DNA of 59,535 nt, from NCBI GenBank assembly GCA_025128025.1, contig JAHLYR010000003.1:1-59535 (forward strand). The letters are read 5' to 3'. Of this stretch, positions 2,476 to 37,749 are shown in pieces. The stretch comes from Synechococcus sp. CS-1330 (GTDB taxonomy: Bacteria; Cyanobacteriota; Cyanobacteriia; PCC-6307; Cyanobiaceae). Position 1 is the stretch's first letter. The number at the start of each line of letters is the position of its first letter. A program made the translations under genes and the position numbers. The notes below the pieces were generated by a model. It was given only the letters and a program-made list of their open reading frames with translations, searched no databases and had not been told where the DNA came from.

Positions 2476-2524
2476 AGCGTGATCCCATGCTTCTCAACAA
2501 TAGATGCAGTTGCGAAGAGGTGCC

Positions 2525-3433
2525 ATGAGCAAACCCCGAGCCGTCTTCCTCGATGCCCTCAGCCTGGGCCCGGTAGACCTGGCCCCCCTGGAGCGTCATG
2601 CCGAACTGATCTCCTGGCCCAGCACCCCGCCGGAGCTACGCCTAGAGCGGCTGCAGGGGGCCGCGATCGCAATCACCAACAAGATCCGGCTGGATGGGGA
2701 GCAGCTGCGGCAACTGCCCCAGCTGCGACTGATCTGCGCAGCTAGCACCGGCACCGACCAGATCGATGGCCAGGCCTGCAGCGAGTTGGGTATCGCCGTG
2801 CGCAATGCCGGTCGCTACAGCACGGCCTCGGTGGTGCAGGTGACCTGGGCGCTGATCCTCGAGCTGGTCTGCGATCTGCAAACCCGGCGGCGCCAGGTGC
2901 TGCAGGGCGACTGGCAACGCAGCCAAGTTTTTTCCCTGGTGGAGCCGGAATTTAATGAACTAGCCGGCCGCACCCTCACCGTGGTGGGAGCCGGCACCAT
3001 CGGCCGAGGCGTGGCGGCCGTTGCGGAGGCCTTCGGGATGGAGGTGCGCCTGATCACCAGCCGCAGCAGTGCCGGCGAACTCGAAGCCGCCCTGCGCCAG
3101 GCAGATGTGCTGAGCCTGCATGCGCCGCTCACCCCGGCAACCCGGGGCCTGATCAACGCCGAGCGGCTGAGCTGGTTGAAGCCTGCGGCCGTGCTGGTGA
3201 ATCTGGGCCGGGGCGGCCTGATCGAGCTGCCGGCCCTCATTGAAGCCCTGGTGCAGGGCCGCCTGGCTGGAGCGGCCCTCGACGTACTTGAAAAGGAGCC
3301 CCCAGGCGCAGAGTTGGAGTCCCTTAAAAAGGTGCCAAACCTGATCCTGACGCCCCACATCGGCTGGGCTTCCCGCCAAGCCCGCCAGCGACTGGTGGCC
3401 GCACTTGCCGGGCATCTGAGAGAGGCAGACTGA
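2525..3433 (+). CDS. D-2-hydroxyacid dehydrogenase (NAD-dependent)
   Basis: The 302-residue product is a typical D-isomer-specific 2-hydroxyacid dehydrogenase. It has the NAD-binding motif VGAGTIGRGV at 154-163 and the catalytic residues Arg229 (GRGG), Glu258 (EKEP) and His278 (TPHIGW). It reduces or oxidises a 2-keto/2-hydroxy acid; hydroxypyruvate/glycerate in photorespiration is a plausible cyanobacterial substrate but is inference. The ATG at 2525 was chosen because an AGAGG Shine-Dalgarno lies about five bases before it; a longer start at 2504 has none. The arsM gene follows after 27 bases on the same strand. Confidence 0.85.
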   Translation: MSKPRAVFLDALSLGPVDLAPLERHAELISWPSTPPELRLERLQGAAIAITNKIRLDGEQLRQLPQLRLICAASTGTDQIDGQACSELGIAVRNAGRYSTASVVQVTWALILELVCDLQTRRRQVLQGDWQRSQVFSLVEPEFNELAGRTLTVVGAGTIGRGVAAVAEAFGMEVRLITSRSSAGELEAALRQADVLSLHAPLTPATRGLINAERLSWLKPAAVLVNLGRGGLIELPALIEALVQGRLAGAALDVLEKEPPGAELESLKKVPNLILTPHIGWASRQARQRLVAALAGHLREAD

Positions 3434-3460
3434 CCCCATCTCCCCAGGCCGCGCGCTGCC

Positions 3461-4525
3461 ATGCCCACCCAAGCCGCCGTTCAGGCCTATTACGGTCAGG
3501 AGCTCACCAGCACGGCCGACCTCAAGACCAGCGCTTGCTGCGATGCCGATGGGGTGCCGGACTGGCTGCGGCCGCTGCTGGCCCGCATCCACCCCGATGT
3601 GCTGGCGCGCTACTACGGCTGCGGCCTGGTGTGCCCGCCCCTGCTGGAGGGCTGCCGCATTCTCGATCTGGGCTGCGGCACGGGCCGCGACGTCTACGCC
3701 CTGGCCCAGCTGGTGGGGCCGAGCGGTTCGGTGGTGGGCGTCGACATGACGGCGGAGCAGCTGGCGGTGGCCCGCGAGCACCTCGCCTTCCATGCCGAGC
3801 AGTTCGGCTACGCCAACGTGTCGTTTCTGGAGGGCACGATCGAAGCCCTCGAGGCCCTGCCCCTGAAGCCGGGCAGCTTCGACGTGATCGTGAGCAACTG
3901 CGTGCTCAACCTCTCCACCGATAAAGCGGCTGTGCTGCAAGGGGTGAAACGGCTGCTCAAACCCGGCGGGGAGCTGTACTTCTCCGATGTGTACGTGGAT
4001 CGGCGCCTGCCGGAGTCGGTGCGGCGCGATCCGGTGCTCTACGGCGAATGCCTGGGCGGAGCCCTCTACTGGAACGACTTCCTGCGCCTCGCCAAGGGCG
4101 CCGGCTTCCCTGACCCGCGGCTGGTGAGTGACCGCGAAATCAAGATCACCGAGCCGGCCCTGGCGCCGCTGGTGGGCGAGGCCCGCTTCTATGCCGCCAC
4201 CTACCGCCTCTTCCAGATCGCCGAGCTGGAAGATGCCTGCGAAGACCACGGCCAGGCCGTGATCTACCGCGGCACGATCCCCCAGCACCCGCACCGCTTC
4301 GACCTTGATGGCCACCACGCCATCGAAACCGGCCGGGTGTTCCCGGTTTGCGGCAACAGCTTCCGGATGCTGCAAGCCACCCGGTTTGCGCCCCATTTCA
4401 CGTTCATCGGCGACTTCAGCCGCCACTACGGCCTGTTCCCCGGCCGCGGCAACAGCATGCCCTTCGCGGATGTCGCCGCAACCAAAGAAACCACAGGCGT
4501 GGTCGACTCAGGAAGCTGCTGCTGA
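3461..4525 (+). CDS. arsM: Arsenite S-adenosylmethionine methyltransferase
   Basis: The 354-residue protein has the class I methyltransferase core with SAM motif DLGCGTGRD at 69-77 and acidic D95. Cysteines 72, 147 (SNCVLN) and 197 (YGECLGGALYW) correspond to the conserved As(III)-handling cysteines of ArsM, and a Cys pair at 26/27 precedes the domain. The C-terminal about 110 residues (GNSFRMLQATRF..HF) resemble the extended ArsM of the arsenosugar pathway. The expected role is methylation of arsenite in the cytosol as detoxification or as the first step to arsenosugars. No arsS, arsR or arsenite pump is in the window. Its last 100 bases overlap the 3' end of the convergent Coq4-like reading frame. 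Confidence 0.88.
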   Translation: MPTQAAVQAYYGQELTSTADLKTSACCDADGVPDWLRPLLARIHPDVLARYYGCGLVCPPLLEGCRILDLGCGTGRDVYALAQLVGPSGSVVGVDMTAEQLAVAREHLAFHAEQFGYANVSFLEGTIEALEALPLKPGSFDVIVSNCVLNLSTDKAAVLQGVKRLLKPGGELYFSDVYVDRRLPESVRRDPVLYGECLGGALYWNDFLRLAKGAGFPDPRLVSDREIKITEPALAPLVGEARFYAATYRLFQIAELEDACEDHGQAVIYRGTIPQHPHRFDLDGHHAIETGRVFPVCGNSFRMLQATRFAPHFTFIGDFSRHYGLFPGRGNSMPFADVAATKETTGVVDSGSCC

Positions 4526-5505
4526 CGCCTCGTCCTCCCAGAACAGGTGATCCACCGAGCTGAGCCGATGGGGCCGGCACACGTTGAACTGCTGCCGCAC
4601 CTCCGATAACGGCAAGGGTGCCAGGGCGAAATGGTCCACCAGGGAGAAATCGGCGCTGCAGGCACTGCACGCTTGAGTTCTGAAGCCAGCAGATAGGCCG
4701 CCGAAGGGCTGTCCAGGCTGGAGTGATCGGGCGCCAGGGTGGGATTGGCGCTCACAAAGCCCGCTTCGTGGGTCACCAAAGATGCCAGTAGGGCACTCTC
4801 ATTGATGGGGTTGTCCTGCATCGCCCACTGAAAAGCGCTGAGGGCGATCTCGCCGGCACTGGTCGCCGCAATCCCCGCAATCACGTGGGTCATGTCGTGG
4901 GCCAGGTAGAGGTGATTGAGGGCGCAGGCATCCCGCCCGGGCAGGGGGAAACCGAAGCGGTCGTAGTAAACGAGCAACGCCCGAGCCAGGCTGGCCTGCG
5001 GGAGCTGGGCGAAGCCCTCAATCCGCGCCACCAGCGCCGGTTCTGGCTGGTCACCAGAAGCCAGCGGATCCGCCAGACCGGGCTCACTCCGCAAGGGCAG
5101 GAAGGTCGTGAAGATCCTGCCCACATCCGCCGCCGCCTGGTCGACCCCCTGGCGCAACCAATCACGGCTCACCTCCAGGGCCGCGCTGCTCACCCCCAAC
5201 GCCTCGGCATAGGCCCAGCCCAGCGCGAGCTGAGCATCCGTCTGCGGATGTCGGCAAAACTCGAGGGTCATCTGCAGCAGATGGGCCACCCGCCGCGTCG
5301 GCAGATCATTAAGCGCTGCCGCCAGTTCTTCAGGAGCGATCGGCTCCAGCGCTGAAACGCGCAGGTCTGGGCGCTCCCAAAGGTGGTTGAGCAGTGCCTG
5401 CAGTAGACGCCGCTGCTCCACGGTCGGGCCGCCGCTGCAGGAGATAGATCCCAGCAGGCCCCGGGCCACCGGCTCTACCAACGATCCATCCAGCAGCAAG
5501 CCCAT
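4426..5505 (-). CDS. Coq4-family protein with 3' frameshift
   Basis: The protein contains HDMTH followed by eleven residues and Glu (HD-x2-H-x11-E), the zinc-site signature of Coq4, in a helical context (LNHLYLAHDMTHVIAGI...AGEIALSAFQ). Coq4 acts in ubiquinone synthesis in eukaryotes and proteobacteria; cyanobacteria make plastoquinone, so the substrate here is unknown. After about residue 279 the natural C-terminus jumps to another frame: from 4651 downward that frame reads DFSLVDHFALAPLPLSEVR and ends at a stop at 4508-4510. The open frame instead runs on to 4426 with an unrelated Arg/Ser/Trp-rich tail. One missing base between about 4652 and 4671 explains this. The ATG at 5505 starts four bases after the UPF0104 stop. 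Confidence 0.72.
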   Translation of the reverse strand: MGLLLDGSLVEPVARGLLGSISCSGGPTVEQRRLLQALLNHLWERPDLRVSALEPIAPEELAAALNDLPTRRVAHLLQMTLEFCRHPQTDAQLALGWAYAEALGVSSAALEVSRDWLRQGVDQAAADVGRIFTTFLPLRSEPGLADPLASGDQPEPALVARIEGFAQLPQASLARALLVYYDRFGFPLPGRDACALNHLYLAHDMTHVIAGIAATSAGEIALSAFQWAMQDNPINESALLASLVTHEAGFVSANPTLAPDHSSLDSPSAAYLLASELKRAVPAAPISPWWTISPWHPCRYRRCGSSSTCAGPIGSARWITCSGRTRRQQQLPESTTPVVSLVAATSAKGMLLPRPGNRP

Positions 5506-5509
5506 CTCC

Positions 5510-6508
5510 CTAGGCCGACGCCTGAGCCCGCCTCGGCCCATCCAGCCTGGCCGTGAGCGCCGCCAGCAGATCGGCAATGGTCACCACCAGCCGGTAGCTG
5601 ATCGCAATTGCCAGCAGCGGCGCCTCGGGAATGGCGAAGCCGAGGCGAAGCAGCAGCACCGACTCGAACACGCCCAGGCCGCCGGGGGCGCCGGGCACCA
5701 CCAAGCCAGCGGTCCAGGCCAGGGCGAAGCCTGCCAACCAGCCGCCCCAGCTGAGGCTGTAGGAGAGGTCGAAGGCCTGCACGCAGCAGGCAAAGCCGCC
5801 AAAGCGCAGCAGCACAAATCCAAACTGCACCAGCAGCGGCGGCCAGGGATAGGAGCGAATCGGCGCAGTGGCGGCCGCCTCGATGTCCATGGCCAGCGCC
5901 GAGACCTTTCGGCGCTCCAGGCGATTGAGCAGGGGGTTGAGCCAGCGGGGCCAGAGCAAGACCAAGGGCAACAACCCCAACAAGGCCAGGCCCTGTTGCC
6001 AGCCGCCCGCAGACATCAGCGCCAGGGCCGCCACCGCCGCCACCAAGGGGTCCAGCAGCACCGCCACCAGGGCCAGAGCGCCCGGGGCCGGGGCCGCCAA
6101 GGGCGCCTCAGCGCTGCGCAACAGCTCCACGCGACTGCTGAGGTGCCAGATGCCACCGGGCAGGAATTTGCGCAGGTTGGTATCGAGGTAGGCCCGCACC
6201 AGTTCGCCCCAGCGGGGGCGCAGCCCGAGCCAGCGCAACACCACGCCGAAGGCCAGGCCGTTGGCCACCAGGCTCAGCAAACTCACGCCCACCCCCAGCA
6301 GCAACCACAGCCAGCCCTGACGATCGAGGCTGAGCTGCAGCAGCTGGCGCCCGTGGCCCACTAGGGCCGCCAGCAGAAAACCAAAACTCAGCAAGCTGAT
6401 CCACAGCTTCAAGCCGCCGGGCAGGGGCGGCAAGCCCTCCCACCAGGCGGCCAAATGAATCAGCCCGCGGCGGCAGCGCTGAAGCAGGGCTTGGGCAAAA
6501 GGCGGCAT
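5510..6508 (-). CDS. UPF0104 / LPG synthase-type TM domain protein
   Basis: This 332-residue integral membrane protein has about eight hydrophobic segments and the family hallmarks NLRKFLPGGIWHL (about residue 112) and the late PGAPGGLGVFESVLL loop. These mark the UPF0104/YbhN group, related to the membrane domain of lysylphosphatidylglycerol synthase; members are thought to handle or flip lipids or polyprenyl-linked compounds, but this one is uncharacterised. It has no aminoacyl-transferase domain. It follows larC after 17 bases and precedes the Coq4-like gene by four bases, so both belong to the same operon. Confidence 0.8.
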   Translation of the reverse strand: MPPFAQALLQRCRRGLIHLAAWWEGLPPLPGGLKLWISLLSFGFLLAALVGHGRQLLQLSLDRQGWLWLLLGVGVSLLSLVANGLAFGVVLRWLGLRPRWGELVRAYLDTNLRKFLPGGIWHLSSRVELLRSAEAPLAAPAPGALALVAVLLDPLVAAVAALALMSAGGWQQGLALLGLLPLVLLWPRWLNPLLNRLERRKVSALAMDIEAAATAPIRSYPWPPLLVQFGFVLLRFGGFACCVQAFDLSYSLSWGGWLAGFALAWTAGLVVPGAPGGLGVFESVLLLRLGFAIPEAPLLAIAISYRLVVTIADLLAALTARLDGPRRAQASA

Positions 6509-6525: not shown

Positions 6526-7767
6526 TTAGGGCTCGCTGGGCAAGTTGGCGTCAGGCTGGGCCTCGAGGGCCTGCTGCACAACCAACCGCACCTGATCAAT
6601 CCCCAGTGTGTGCTGGCGCGCAAGAGCTGCCAGATCGTCGTGTTCCGGCTTGCTACGCCAGCGGCCGTCGGGCAGCTGGGCCTGCTTGAGCCGCACCGGC
6701 CCCAGCGGAGTAGCCAGCTGCCGGCTGCGGCGCGGCAGCACCCAGCGGGTTTGGGAGTGTTCGCGCAACCCCAAGGTGCTGCTGTGACGCCACCACACCA
6801 GGCGCAACCTCTCGGCCTGCTCGGGGGCTACAAGGGCCGTAAGCAGCTGGGCGGGGCGCCCTTTCTTCATGGCGATCGCCTGGCTGAACACCTCCAAGGC
6901 CCCGGCCTGGCGCAGTTCCTCAGCCAGGAAAGCCAGATCCTCCGCCGTAGCATCGTCGATCTGGGCCTGCTGCACCAGCACGGTTTCTAGATGCACGGTT
7001 TCGAGCTGAACGGTTTCTTGCTGCGCAGGATCGGAGCCGCCGCGATCGGCCAGGGTGAGCCTCAGCAGGTTGGGGCGATACAGGCTGCGCGAGCCCAGCC
7101 CCACGCCTACCCGCTTAGGCACGTGGGTGGGTGGATGGCCAAAGCGCGTCGCCCAGCAGGCCGCTAGAGCCAGACCGGTGGGGGTGGTGAGTTCGCCCGG
7201 GGGGAAGCCCTCGGCTGAGGCCAGGGGAATCGCCCGCAAGCGGGCCAGCTCCAATACGGCAGGCGCCGGCAGGGGCAGGGTGCCGTGGGCCGTAGCCACC
7301 AGGCCATGACCCGCCGGCGGCGGACTGCACACCAGCTGCTCCACCCCGAAGTGCAGCAGCCCGGCGCACACTCCCACCACATCCACCAGGGCATCAAGGG
7401 CGCCCACCTCGTGGAAGTGCACCTGCTCGGGGCTGTGGCCGTGCACCGCCGCCTCAGCCGCCGCCAGCAGGCCGAACACCTCCAGCACCCGCTGCCGCAA
7501 GGGCTCGGGCCAGGGGGCGTCTTGCAGCTGGCTCCGCAGATCGCCCCAGAGCCGATGGGCCGGCTGGCGCTCCAGGCTCAGCACCTCCAGATGCATACCC
7601 CGGAGGCCGCCGCTGCGGCGCTCTTCAAGCTCCAAGCGGTAGGTCCCGGCCAGGCCGAGGGCGGCCAGGGGGCCATCGATCTCCGCCTGCGGTAGCCCCA
7701 GATCCAACAGGGCTGCCAAAAGCATGTTGCCAGCTAAGCCCGTGGGCGCATCCAGCAGCGCCAGCAC
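6526..7767 (-). CDS. larC: Nickel pincer cofactor biosynthesis protein LarC
   Basis: The 413-residue product belongs to the LarC (DUF111) family that inserts nickel into the pincer nucleotide cofactor of lactate-racemase-like enzymes. Visible hallmarks are the N-terminal DAPTGLAGNMLLAALLDLG, the EQVHFHEVGALDALVDVVG block, PLPAPAVLELARL, GELTTPTGLAL and GVGLGSRSL. The GTG at 7767 is chosen because GGGGAGG lies nine bases upstream and the family starts right before this segment; a longer frame begins at 7827 inside the protease gene. larB and larE, which make the nucleotide, and a LarA enzyme are not in the window. It lies four bases after the M41-like protease gene. Confidence 0.88.
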   Translation of the reverse strand: MLALLDAPTGLAGNMLLAALLDLGLPQAEIDGPLAALGLAGTYRLELEERRSGGLRGMHLEVLSLERQPAHRLWGDLRSQLQDAPWPEPLRQRVLEVFGLLAAAEAAVHGHSPEQVHFHEVGALDALVDVVGVCAGLLHFGVEQLVCSPPPAGHGLVATAHGTLPLPAPAVLELARLRAIPLASAEGFPPGELTTPTGLALAACWATRFGHPPTHVPKRVGVGLGSRSLYRPNLLRLTLADRGGSDPAQQETVQLETVHLETVLVQQAQIDDATAEDLAFLAEELRQAGALEVFSQAIAMKKGRPAQLLTALVAPEQAERLRLVWWRHSSTLGLREHSQTRWVLPRRSRQLATPLGPVRLKQAQLPDGRWRSKPEHDDLAALARQHTLGIDQVRLVVQQALEAQPDANLPSEP

Positions 7768-7771
7768 CGCC

Positions 7772-8416
7772 TCAGGCCTCCCCAGCCAGGGGGCGCCCCA
7801 GCCTTGGCGCCAATGCCAGCAGGACATCGGCCTCCGCCTGCAGTTGCTGCTCGCTGGCGCGCAACTGGGCCTCTACCTCGCGGCGGGCCCGGCGCTGTTC
7901 CCGCTGGGCGGTATCAACGTCTTGGCCGGAGAGGCCCCAGAGCCGCCCCAGCAGGGCCCGGTCGTCGTTGCCGCCCACGCTCTGGCCGTAGATCAGCTGC
8001 TCGGCCACCATGCCCGCCTGCAGCACCCGGCTCCAGCGCCGCAGCTCCTCGGCCGGCAACTTGGCATGGGCCGGTGGCTCGAGTTCGGTGCTGCCGCTGG
8101 TGTTGAGGCCGGCCCGCAGGCAGGCCAGGGAACCCACCAGCACCTGACGCACCGCCATCTCCTCCTGACGCGCCACCAACAGGTGACCCGCCTCATGAAT
8201 CGCAATCCGCCGCAGGCGGGCGCGGCCACCGGGCAGAGCTTCGGCCAGAACATGGCCGCCGCGGCCACCGAAGCGGGCCGCATCCAAGGTGAGGCCGCCC
8301 AAACCCAGGCCCGCTATCAAGGTCACAATCCAGGGCGATAGGCCCAGGGCGGGGCCAAGAATCGCCGCCAGGCTGATCAAGCCCACGGACAGGCCAGCCG
8401 CCAGGGGTTGGGTCAT
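7772..8416 (-). CDS. Membrane M41-type zinc protease without AAA domain
   Basis: The 214-residue protein has one or two membrane segments at about 8-45 and then the zinc motif HEAGH at 74-78, with a GGNDD stretch near 148-152 where FtsH-type enzymes have their third metal ligand. It therefore resembles the peptidase M41 domain of FtsH but has no AAA ATPase. Such stand-alone M41-like proteins are known in cyanobacteria and plastids, with substrates unknown. The C-terminus is Arg/Glu/Gln-rich and probably coiled. The ATG overlaps the stop of the upstream gene by four bases (ATGA), and its end carries the ribosome binding site of larC. Confidence 0.8.
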   Translation of the reverse strand: MTQPLAAGLSVGLISLAAILGPALGLSPWIVTLIAGLGLGGLTLDAARFGGRGGHVLAEALPGGRARLRRIAIHEAGHLLVARQEEMAVRQVLVGSLACLRAGLNTSGSTELEPPAHAKLPAEELRRWSRVLQAGMVAEQLIYGQSVGGNDDRALLGRLWGLSGQDVDTAQREQRRARREVEAQLRASEQQLQAEADVLLALAPRLGRPLAGEA

Positions 8417-36208: not shown

Positions 36209-36447
36209 TCATCGAGGGCGTTGAACTTGGGCTCCACATGGATGCCAATCACGCCGATGGGTCGCACCACCAGATACTCGCCCTCCAGGTCGCCGATCGG
36301 CACATTCACGAAGGCGTCTGGGGCGGAGGCGGTGAGAACCCCGCCATACCACTGCTGAAACGCCTCCAGGGTGGGGAAATTGACGGTTTCGGTCTGGCCG
36401 CCGCTCATATGCAGGTGAACGGCGTAGCGGCGGGGGATACGGGACAT
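36205..36447 (-). CDS. Small conserved protein, unknown function
   Basis: The 80-residue product from the ATG at 36447 reads as a compact soluble domain (RRYAVHLHMSGGQTETVNF, FQQWYGGVL, NVPIGDLEGEYLVVRPIGV). I do not recognise a named family, although its even hydrophobic pattern suggests a conserved cyanobacterial fold. The first 43 bases overlap the DUF1643 gene in another frame, and the stop overlaps the antiporter ATG by four bases, so the three genes form an operon. Confidence 0.65.
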   Translation of the reverse strand: MSRIPRRYAVHLHMSGGQTETVNFPTLEAFQQWYGGVLTASAPDAFVNVPIGDLEGEYLVVRPIGVIGIHVEPKFNALDE

Positions 36448-37004
36448 GGGCGCGCGCCAGGCAGCGAAACGGTCGTGCCCACAGGATGCCCCAGGGTCTG
36501 TTGGTTGCGCCAGGTGAGTGGCTGCAGCGCAACATCGCTGGCCACATAGAGGGGATGGCGGGGCTGGCCGGCAGCGGTGAGGCCCAGGGCCCAGAGACCA
36601 CGCCCCTGCAACAAGGCCAGCACCCCCTGATCGCGCCCCCGCCAAGCACCCTGGTTGCCCCAGCCCAGCCACACCAGCGCCTGGGGATTGGCTGCCAGCC
36701 GTTGCTGCATCCAGACATCGGCCTCGGCGCCCACCGGATCGGCGGCGCGGCGCAGGGCCGCCGGCGATGGGCTGATGCTCGCAAACAGGTTGAGCACCTC
36801 CAGGCTGCCAAAACCCCAACGGCGGCCAAAGCCCACCAACCGCCACAGGGTGGGATCGTCCCGCTGGCCATCGGCCCGCGAGGGATTGAGACCAATGAAG
36901 AGCAGCCGTGGCGCTGCCGGCTGCCACACCCGCTCCAGCCACCAGCGGCAGTGCCTGCAGGGGCTGAAGGCGGCGGTGCCGCTGACGATGTCCTCCTGCA
37001 GCAT
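36405..37004 (-). CDS. DUF1643 domain protein
   Basis: The 199-residue protein shows the DUF1643 motifs LLFIGLNPSRADGQRDDPTLWRL, FGRRWGFGSLEVLNLFA and VWLGWGNQGAW. Family function is unknown; the fold is related to nucleotide/uracil-glycosylase-like enzymes. A Cys/Trp cluster, CRHCRWWLERVW, lies near the N-terminus. The ATG at 37004 is preferred; the frame is open upstream but crosses the divergent MNT gene. Its end overlaps the next gene by 43 bases. Confidence 0.75.
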   Translation of the reverse strand: MLQEDIVSGTAAFSPCRHCRWWLERVWQPAAPRLLFIGLNPSRADGQRDDPTLWRLVGFGRRWGFGSLEVLNLFASISPSPAALRRAADPVGAEADVWMQQRLAANPQALVWLGWGNQGAWRGRDQGVLALLQGRGLWALGLTAAGQPRHPLYVASDVALQPLTWRNQQTLGHPVGTTVSLPGARPCPVSPAATPFTCI

Positions 37005-37021
37005 CGGCCTAGCATTAAACA

Positions 37022-37360
37022 ATGCCCAGCCTGGCTGCCATTCGCGAACAGCGCCAAAGTGCCCGCCTAACTGCGCTGCGCGCAAGCGCCGCAGATGTTG
37101 CTGCCAACCATCCAGGCGGCGAAGTTTGGCTGTTTGGCTCGCTGGCCCGCGGCGACTGGGATGCCTGCTCCGACGTTGACCTGCTGGCCATCGCCCCCAC
37201 CCAGCAGCAGGCGGATGCCCTGGCCGATGCCCTGCTGGGCGCCCGTATGGGAGACGACGTGCTGGCCCTAAGCCAGGAGCGCTGGCAGCAGCTAAAAGGA
37301 AGCGACGATCCCTACTGGCGAGCCATCGGCCGGGACGCCCTGCGCCTGGATCAGCCGTGA
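37022..37360 (+). CDS. Minimal nucleotidyltransferase (MNT) domain protein
   Basis: The 112-residue protein carries the nucleotidyltransferase signature GSLARGDWDACSDVDLLAI (Gly-Ser, then two catalytic Asp in SDVDLL). Small MNT proteins are usually the antitoxin partner of HEPN proteins and in characterised pairs add AMP to the toxin. It starts 17 bases from the divergent DUF1643 ATG, and its stop overlaps the GTG of the HEPN gene (GTGA), so both are translated together. Confidence 0.85.
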   Translation: MPSLAAIREQRQSARLTALRASAADVAANHPGGEVWLFGSLARGDWDACSDVDLLAIAPTQQQADALADALLGARMGDDVLALSQERWQQLKGSDDPYWRAIGRDALRLDQP

Positions 37361-37749
37361 CGCCCCGGGTTGAAGCCTGGATCCGCCAGGCCCAAAACGA
37401 TCTGGAGGCAGCGCGCTTCACCGCCGGCCAGGAGTTTCATGCCCAGGCCTGCTACCTGGCGGGTCAGGCCGCCGAAAAAGCCCTCAAAGCCTTGCTGCTG
37501 GCGGCCGGGATCACCCCGCCCTACAGCCACTCCCTCGAGAAACTGGTGGAGCTGCTGCAACAGCAGGGCCTGGATCTCCCAGCCCTGGCTGAGCTGCACC
37601 TCAAGGCGCTTACGCGCATGAACAGCGCCAGCCGCGACCCCCAAGGCGATGAGGCGCCTGCTGATCTCTTCGATGCCAAGGACAGCACCACTGCCCTGGG
37701 CACCGCGGAGGCCGTGGTGCGGATCGCCATGACCCAACTGCAAGCCTGA
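37357..37749 (+). CDS. HEPN domain protein, partner of MNT
   Basis: The 130-residue helical protein has the HEPN core EAWIRQAQNDLEAARF, CYLAGQAAEKALKALLL, SHSLEKLVELL and ends with a SRDPQGDEAPADLF region matching the RYPD-type C-terminal block of PF05168. The RNase-type R-x4-6-H motif of toxic HEPN proteins is not evident. This leaves it as an MNT partner, either a toxin with a divergent site or an inactive regulator. It is followed by polA after 40 bases. Confidence 0.82.
   Translation: MTPRVEAWIRQAQNDLEAARFTAGQEFHAQACYLAGQAAEKALKALLLAAGITPPYSHSLEKLVELLQQQGLDLPALAELHLKALTRMNSASRDPQGDEAPADLFDAKDSTTALGTAEAVVRIAMTQLQA

Follow-up and report, generated by a model that had tools for sequence, protein, structure and literature searches.

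A gene of a divergent Coq4-like family in Synechococcus sp. CS-1330 has lost one base relative to the copies in its relatives, and with it a conserved C-terminal segment, and in two related species only 3′ stumps of the same gene are left. From the comparisons below we infer that the strain truly carries the deletion and that this change is recent and abolishes function, and we put the probability of a real, recent and probably inactivating one-base deletion in a dispensable accessory gene at about three in four. The gene lies in the window (the whole stretch of 59,535 nucleotides that was analyzed), which is one contig of a draft genome of 2.51 Mb in 72 contigs, with a listed completeness of 99.91%. 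The features concerned are these, in window coordinates.

3461..4525, plus strand: arsM-like gene (arsenite-methyltransferase-like), convergent with the Coq4-like gene; the top NCBIfam hit falls short of its cut-off
4426..5505, minus strand: Coq4-like gene in its present reading, from ATG at 5505 to TAG at 4426-4428, 359 aa
4508..4666, minus strand: relict of the C-terminal coding sequence, read in the other frame (SACSADFSLVDHFALAPLPLSEVRQQFNV...), ending with TGA at 4508-4510
4668..4669, minus strand: one-base deletion; GG in relatives and one G at 4668 in the window, by DNA alignment
5510..6508, minus strand: gene upstream of the Coq4-like gene; its MprF-like match is weak, with a score far under the cut-off
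6526..7827, minus strand: larC-like gene (nickel pincer cofactor biosynthesis), next upstream of the gene with the MprF-like match and on the same strand

The frame break and the segment beyond it

Orthologues were located in genomes of the genus and in named records, i.e. Cyanobium sp. T1B-Tous, Cyanobium sp. FACHB-13342 and two MAGs. As assessed by alignment, residues 1-279 of the Coq4-like ORF are in the family frame, with a 64-90% match to the intact orthologues over these 279 codons, and the next 80 residues are unrelated. DNA alignment with five relatives places a one-base deletion beside 4668, inside the interval 4652-4671 to which the original prediction had confined the change of frame. 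At this site, the window reads GCGT-GC (CGTGCAGTGCC, with the missing base adjoining 4668), whereas all five copies compared carry one further base, a G (CGTGGCAGTGCC in L003, L006, and L176, CGGGGCAGTGCC in L004, and CGCGGTAGC in L005). Three of these copies belong to full-length genes (L003, L004, and L005) and two to 3′ stumps (L006 and L176). The gene is thus one base short of a continuous protein, as had been proposed. The present tail is common to none of the five orthologous copies, and a sixth, L113, is also in frame at the protein level; the frame break relative to intact orthologues is confirmed.

The C terminus of the orthologues (SACSADFSLVDHF...) carries on in the next frame of the window. 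This other minus frame reads S-A-C-S-A-D (4651) followed by FSLVDHFALAPLPLSEVR... up to the stop at 4508-4510, which the prediction had taken for a natural one. Beyond the deletion, the frame gives SACSADFSLVDHFALAPLPLSEVRQQFNVCRPHRLSSVDHLFWEDEASAAAS where FACHB-13342 has GSACSADFSLVDHFALAPLPLTEVRQQFNVCRPLQPSPVDHLFWGAETSAAAP, a match of 84% over 51 residues that is not due to chance; the conserved C terminus is 53 residues long in FACHB-13342. The new tail of 80 residues comes from reading the relict segment out of frame and then arsM antisense. In 24 homologues, four of which are orthologues, a single open frame runs through the C-terminal segment (this set omits the window locus L158, the stumps L168 and L176, the partial L175, and the distant L010 and L011). 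In a nine-sequence alignment, the lost segment holds 6 of the 24 invariant columns (G280, D286, F287, D291, L300, and R304).

The closest named relatives allow the surroundings of the break to be compared. The gene of FACHB-13342 (NZ_JACJRT010000015.1; L004/L111) is 88% identical over 280 residues and shows the same gene order, larC - membrane protein - Coq4-like - arsM. It also has the same convergent overlap (in L004, Coq4-like gene at 1501-2499 and arsM at 2482-3543), corresponding in place and length to the 18 bases inside the 3′ end of arsM (4508-4525) at which the continuous protein of the window had been predicted to end. Unlike in the window, the frame in FACHB-13342 is intact, encoding 332 aa from a TTG start. 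T1B-Tous (NZ_JAGQBE010000052.1; L003/L114) is 90% identical over 280 residues, but its gene is intact (335 aa) and an AraC-type gene stands between it and arsM. The T1B-Tous accession lies within the accession range of the study PMC9361551, which used Illumina reads and SPAdes.

Within its own genome, the window Coq4-like gene has a single match. The arsM-like gene overlaps the present Coq4-like frame by 100 bases and the relict frame by 18, and its name is provisional because its protein scores below the displayed NCBIfam cut-offs (best score 169 bits, against a cut-off of 263). On the other side, the gene with the MprF-like match ends with a stop 4 bases ahead of the Coq4-like ATG, and co-transcription of the two genes is likely. 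Elsewhere in the window, a minus-strand ORF at 36405-37421 has no third-position signal in its first 131-138 aligned codons when compared with the genomes G015 and G003, whereas the remainder has such a signal; its start may be wrongly placed, or it may overlap another gene.

Upstream of the deletion, the gene is under strong constraint, with a dN/dS of 0.151 relative to T1B-Tous and 0.136 relative to FACHB-13342, both taken over 280 codons; in the window, the frame has changed by the last of these. Four of the six window-specific changes after the site fall at codon positions 1 and 2, compared with 16 of 47 before it; this surplus fits relaxation, although it comes from only six changes and does not reach significance (Fisher p 0.18). 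A recent break is suggested by the strong constraint ahead of it, together with a relict that is still conserved after it.

Relationship to Coq4

The label of a Coq4-family gene given in the original prediction stands in part: it agrees with a metal motif and with distant similarity, but not with the Pfam cut-off for Coq4. The motif region of the window protein and of three orthologues matches PF05019 (Coq4) with E values of 0.0021-0.048, whereas the scores (15.9 bits for the window, 13.4-17.8 with the three orthologues) are below the gathering cut-off of 22.9. A distant homologue, L162, passes that cut-off at 23.7 bits. NCBIfam gave no match for the window Coq4-like protein. The HDxxH-x11-E motif, described for Coq4 in PMC9774615, which also describes Alr8543, is found at residues 203-219 (HDMTHVIAGIAATSAGE), and H203, D204, H207, and E219 are invariant in nine relatives. 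A nine-member profile matches two Coq4 homologues of solved structure, Alr8543 of Nostoc sp. (PDB 6E12) and PDB 3MSQ, around the motif (E 1.1e-6). This match covers about 74-80 residues, and these chains have 224-225 residues whereas members of the Coq4-like family have about 330. The profile match and the motif suggest that a Coq4-like metal site is probably used. AlphaFold models built from five-sequence alignments, with a mean pLDDT of 36.6 for the FACHB-13342 protein and the window product alike, are too poor for a comparison of folds. On sequence comparison, we regard the window gene as encoding a divergent Coq4-like protein and stop short of assigning it to PF05019.

The organisms that bear this Coq4-like family make plastoquinone, not ubiquinone. 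Among the matches listed for the literature on Coq4 in cyanobacteria and on Coq4/Alr8543, none gave a role for the intact family, and a literature search on frameshift pseudogenes in Cyanobium gave no papers.

Alternatives to the proposed loss

Decay, sequencing error and regulated frameshifting had all been offered for the broken frame, and among these decay is best supported, error is possible and regulated frameshifting has found no support. An error of sequencing or assembly would mean that the gene of the strain is intact and the contig short of one G, which we consider unlikely. It would fit a gene in which only a single base is affected and the rest, including the relict frame, is conserved, in a draft of 72 contigs, but the site is a two-base run and not a long homopolymer. 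Small indels were sampled by comparing 746,063 of the 2,512,619 bases of the window genome (2,599 of them N) with the first 1.6 of the 2.66 Mb of G015. The latter genome is a single contig, and its matched ORFs have a median identity of 96.6%. Among the 365,442 bases aligned, one-base gaps were not in significant excess (62 in the window genome versus 54 in G015; binomial p 0.52), and one- plus two-base gaps together numbered 81 versus 66 (p 0.25). Frameshift-like pairs were alike both ways (10 in 384 ORFs and 11 in 378) and in-frame stops numbered 26 in the window genome versus 17 in G015, these ORF, frameshift-like and stop counts all being inflated because overlapping ORFs, probably including spurious ones, were counted. 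Four of the 21 frameshift-like pairs were aligned individually and none proved to be a one-base deletion in the window genome; the check also returned 60 events of which many are compensated pairs. This sampled comparison reveals no clear excess of small deletions in the window assembly and makes a sequencing error less likely, although the gap totals (81 versus 66) and the stops leave a possible weak lean toward the window genome, and a single local error would look no different from a real deletion. In addition, the same gene has been lost in related species, which makes a real loss plausible.

The remaining explanations accept the base as missing. If the 80-residue tail were tolerated, the protein would be a functional C-terminal variant and the gene not a pseudogene. 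The first 279 residues, including the HDxxH-x11-E motif, are indeed intact and constraint is strong as far as the deletion site, but the segment that was lost is conserved in 24 homologues and holds 6 of the 24 invariant columns, and the tail is of relict and antisense origin; such a variant is very unlikely. We consider it extremely unlikely that the base is reversibly gained and lost in the population, or that the truncated allele is advantageous, with Coq4-like activity beside the arsM-like gene switched by mutation. Hardly credible is a programmed −1 frameshift joining both frames. The two frames do overlap at length, with the other frame open from 4798, but in four intact orthologues a single frame covers the whole protein. 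No heptamer of the form XXXYYYZ (searched in its strict form only) starts in any frame within 4810-4500, the stretch 4810-4641 contains no run of at least four equal bases except CCCC at its edge, and none of four Shine-Dalgarno-like motifs tested was found in 4810-4641. With no strict heptamer and no fitting homopolymer or Shine-Dalgarno-like motif in these stretches, and with the two-frame layout absent from the four intact orthologues, programmed frameshifting was rejected.

Stages of loss in the genus

The real deletion that we favor has a parallel in other genomes of the genus. Among 16 such genomes, three have an intact orthologue (G003, G008, and G010), one, that of the window, has a frameshifted gene, and two have only a 3′ stump, beginning at codon 231 in G015 and at about codon 271 in G014. 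In the other 10 no orthologue was found, an absence that is less certain for the four that are below 90% complete (G005, G011, G012, and G013, at 82-88%). Distant homologues, 27-30% identical, occur in G001, G002, G004, and G013, and also in G014. When 251 genomes were sampled family-wide, 26 gave a match at E 1e-20 or better, and the Coq4-like family is therefore patchy. Since some relatives retain the intact gene and others have only a stump, the window case looks like ordinary gene loss.

The two stumps differ in their surroundings. In G015 (L006 1501-1818), the order larC - membrane protein is retained, but 8.2 kb from the stump, and downstream of the stump lie an AraC-type gene, then arsM, then a dehydrogenase. 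An MlaD-like ORF of G015 (L006 832-1593; Pfam PF02470, E 2.9e-9) starts antisense inside the stump in a head-to-head overlap, as would be expected of a rearrangement that cut both genes. The stump of G014 (L176 1504-1701), with about 53 matched codons, is flanked by two mutually related genes, ∼32% alike over 125-132 residues; one of these genes closely resembles the AraC-type gene in T1B-Tous. The 3′ end of the gene or stump overlaps a convergent neighbor in five genomes. This neighbor is arsM in the window and FACHB-13342 (18 bases), and the AraC-type gene in T1B-Tous (L003 1333-1384), G015 (L006 1767-1818), and G014 (L176 1650-1701), with 52 bases overlapped in each. The gene that follows in L005 has the same orientation and does not overlap. 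Such an overlap may help 3′ stumps to persist.

In the proposed course of events, a one-base deletion would have struck the gene recently, after codon 279. Ribosomes that pass the deletion would go on out of frame, with 80 unrelated residues replacing the conserved C terminus, and the product would therefore most likely be misfolded or without function. Because the HDxxH-x11-E motif is intact and upstream of the break, residual activity is possible, and a complete loss of function is presumed. The gene would be an accessory, easily lost member of the Coq4-like family, with the window copy at the onset of decay.

It would be wrong to annotate the 359-aa ORF of the window as a full protein. The significance of the finding is slight, as it adds one further frameshifted accessory gene, an ordinary case. 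Taken together, the copies show how one gene is lost in stages among related picocyanobacteria, being intact in some, broken by a single base in one, and reduced to a 3′ stump in others.
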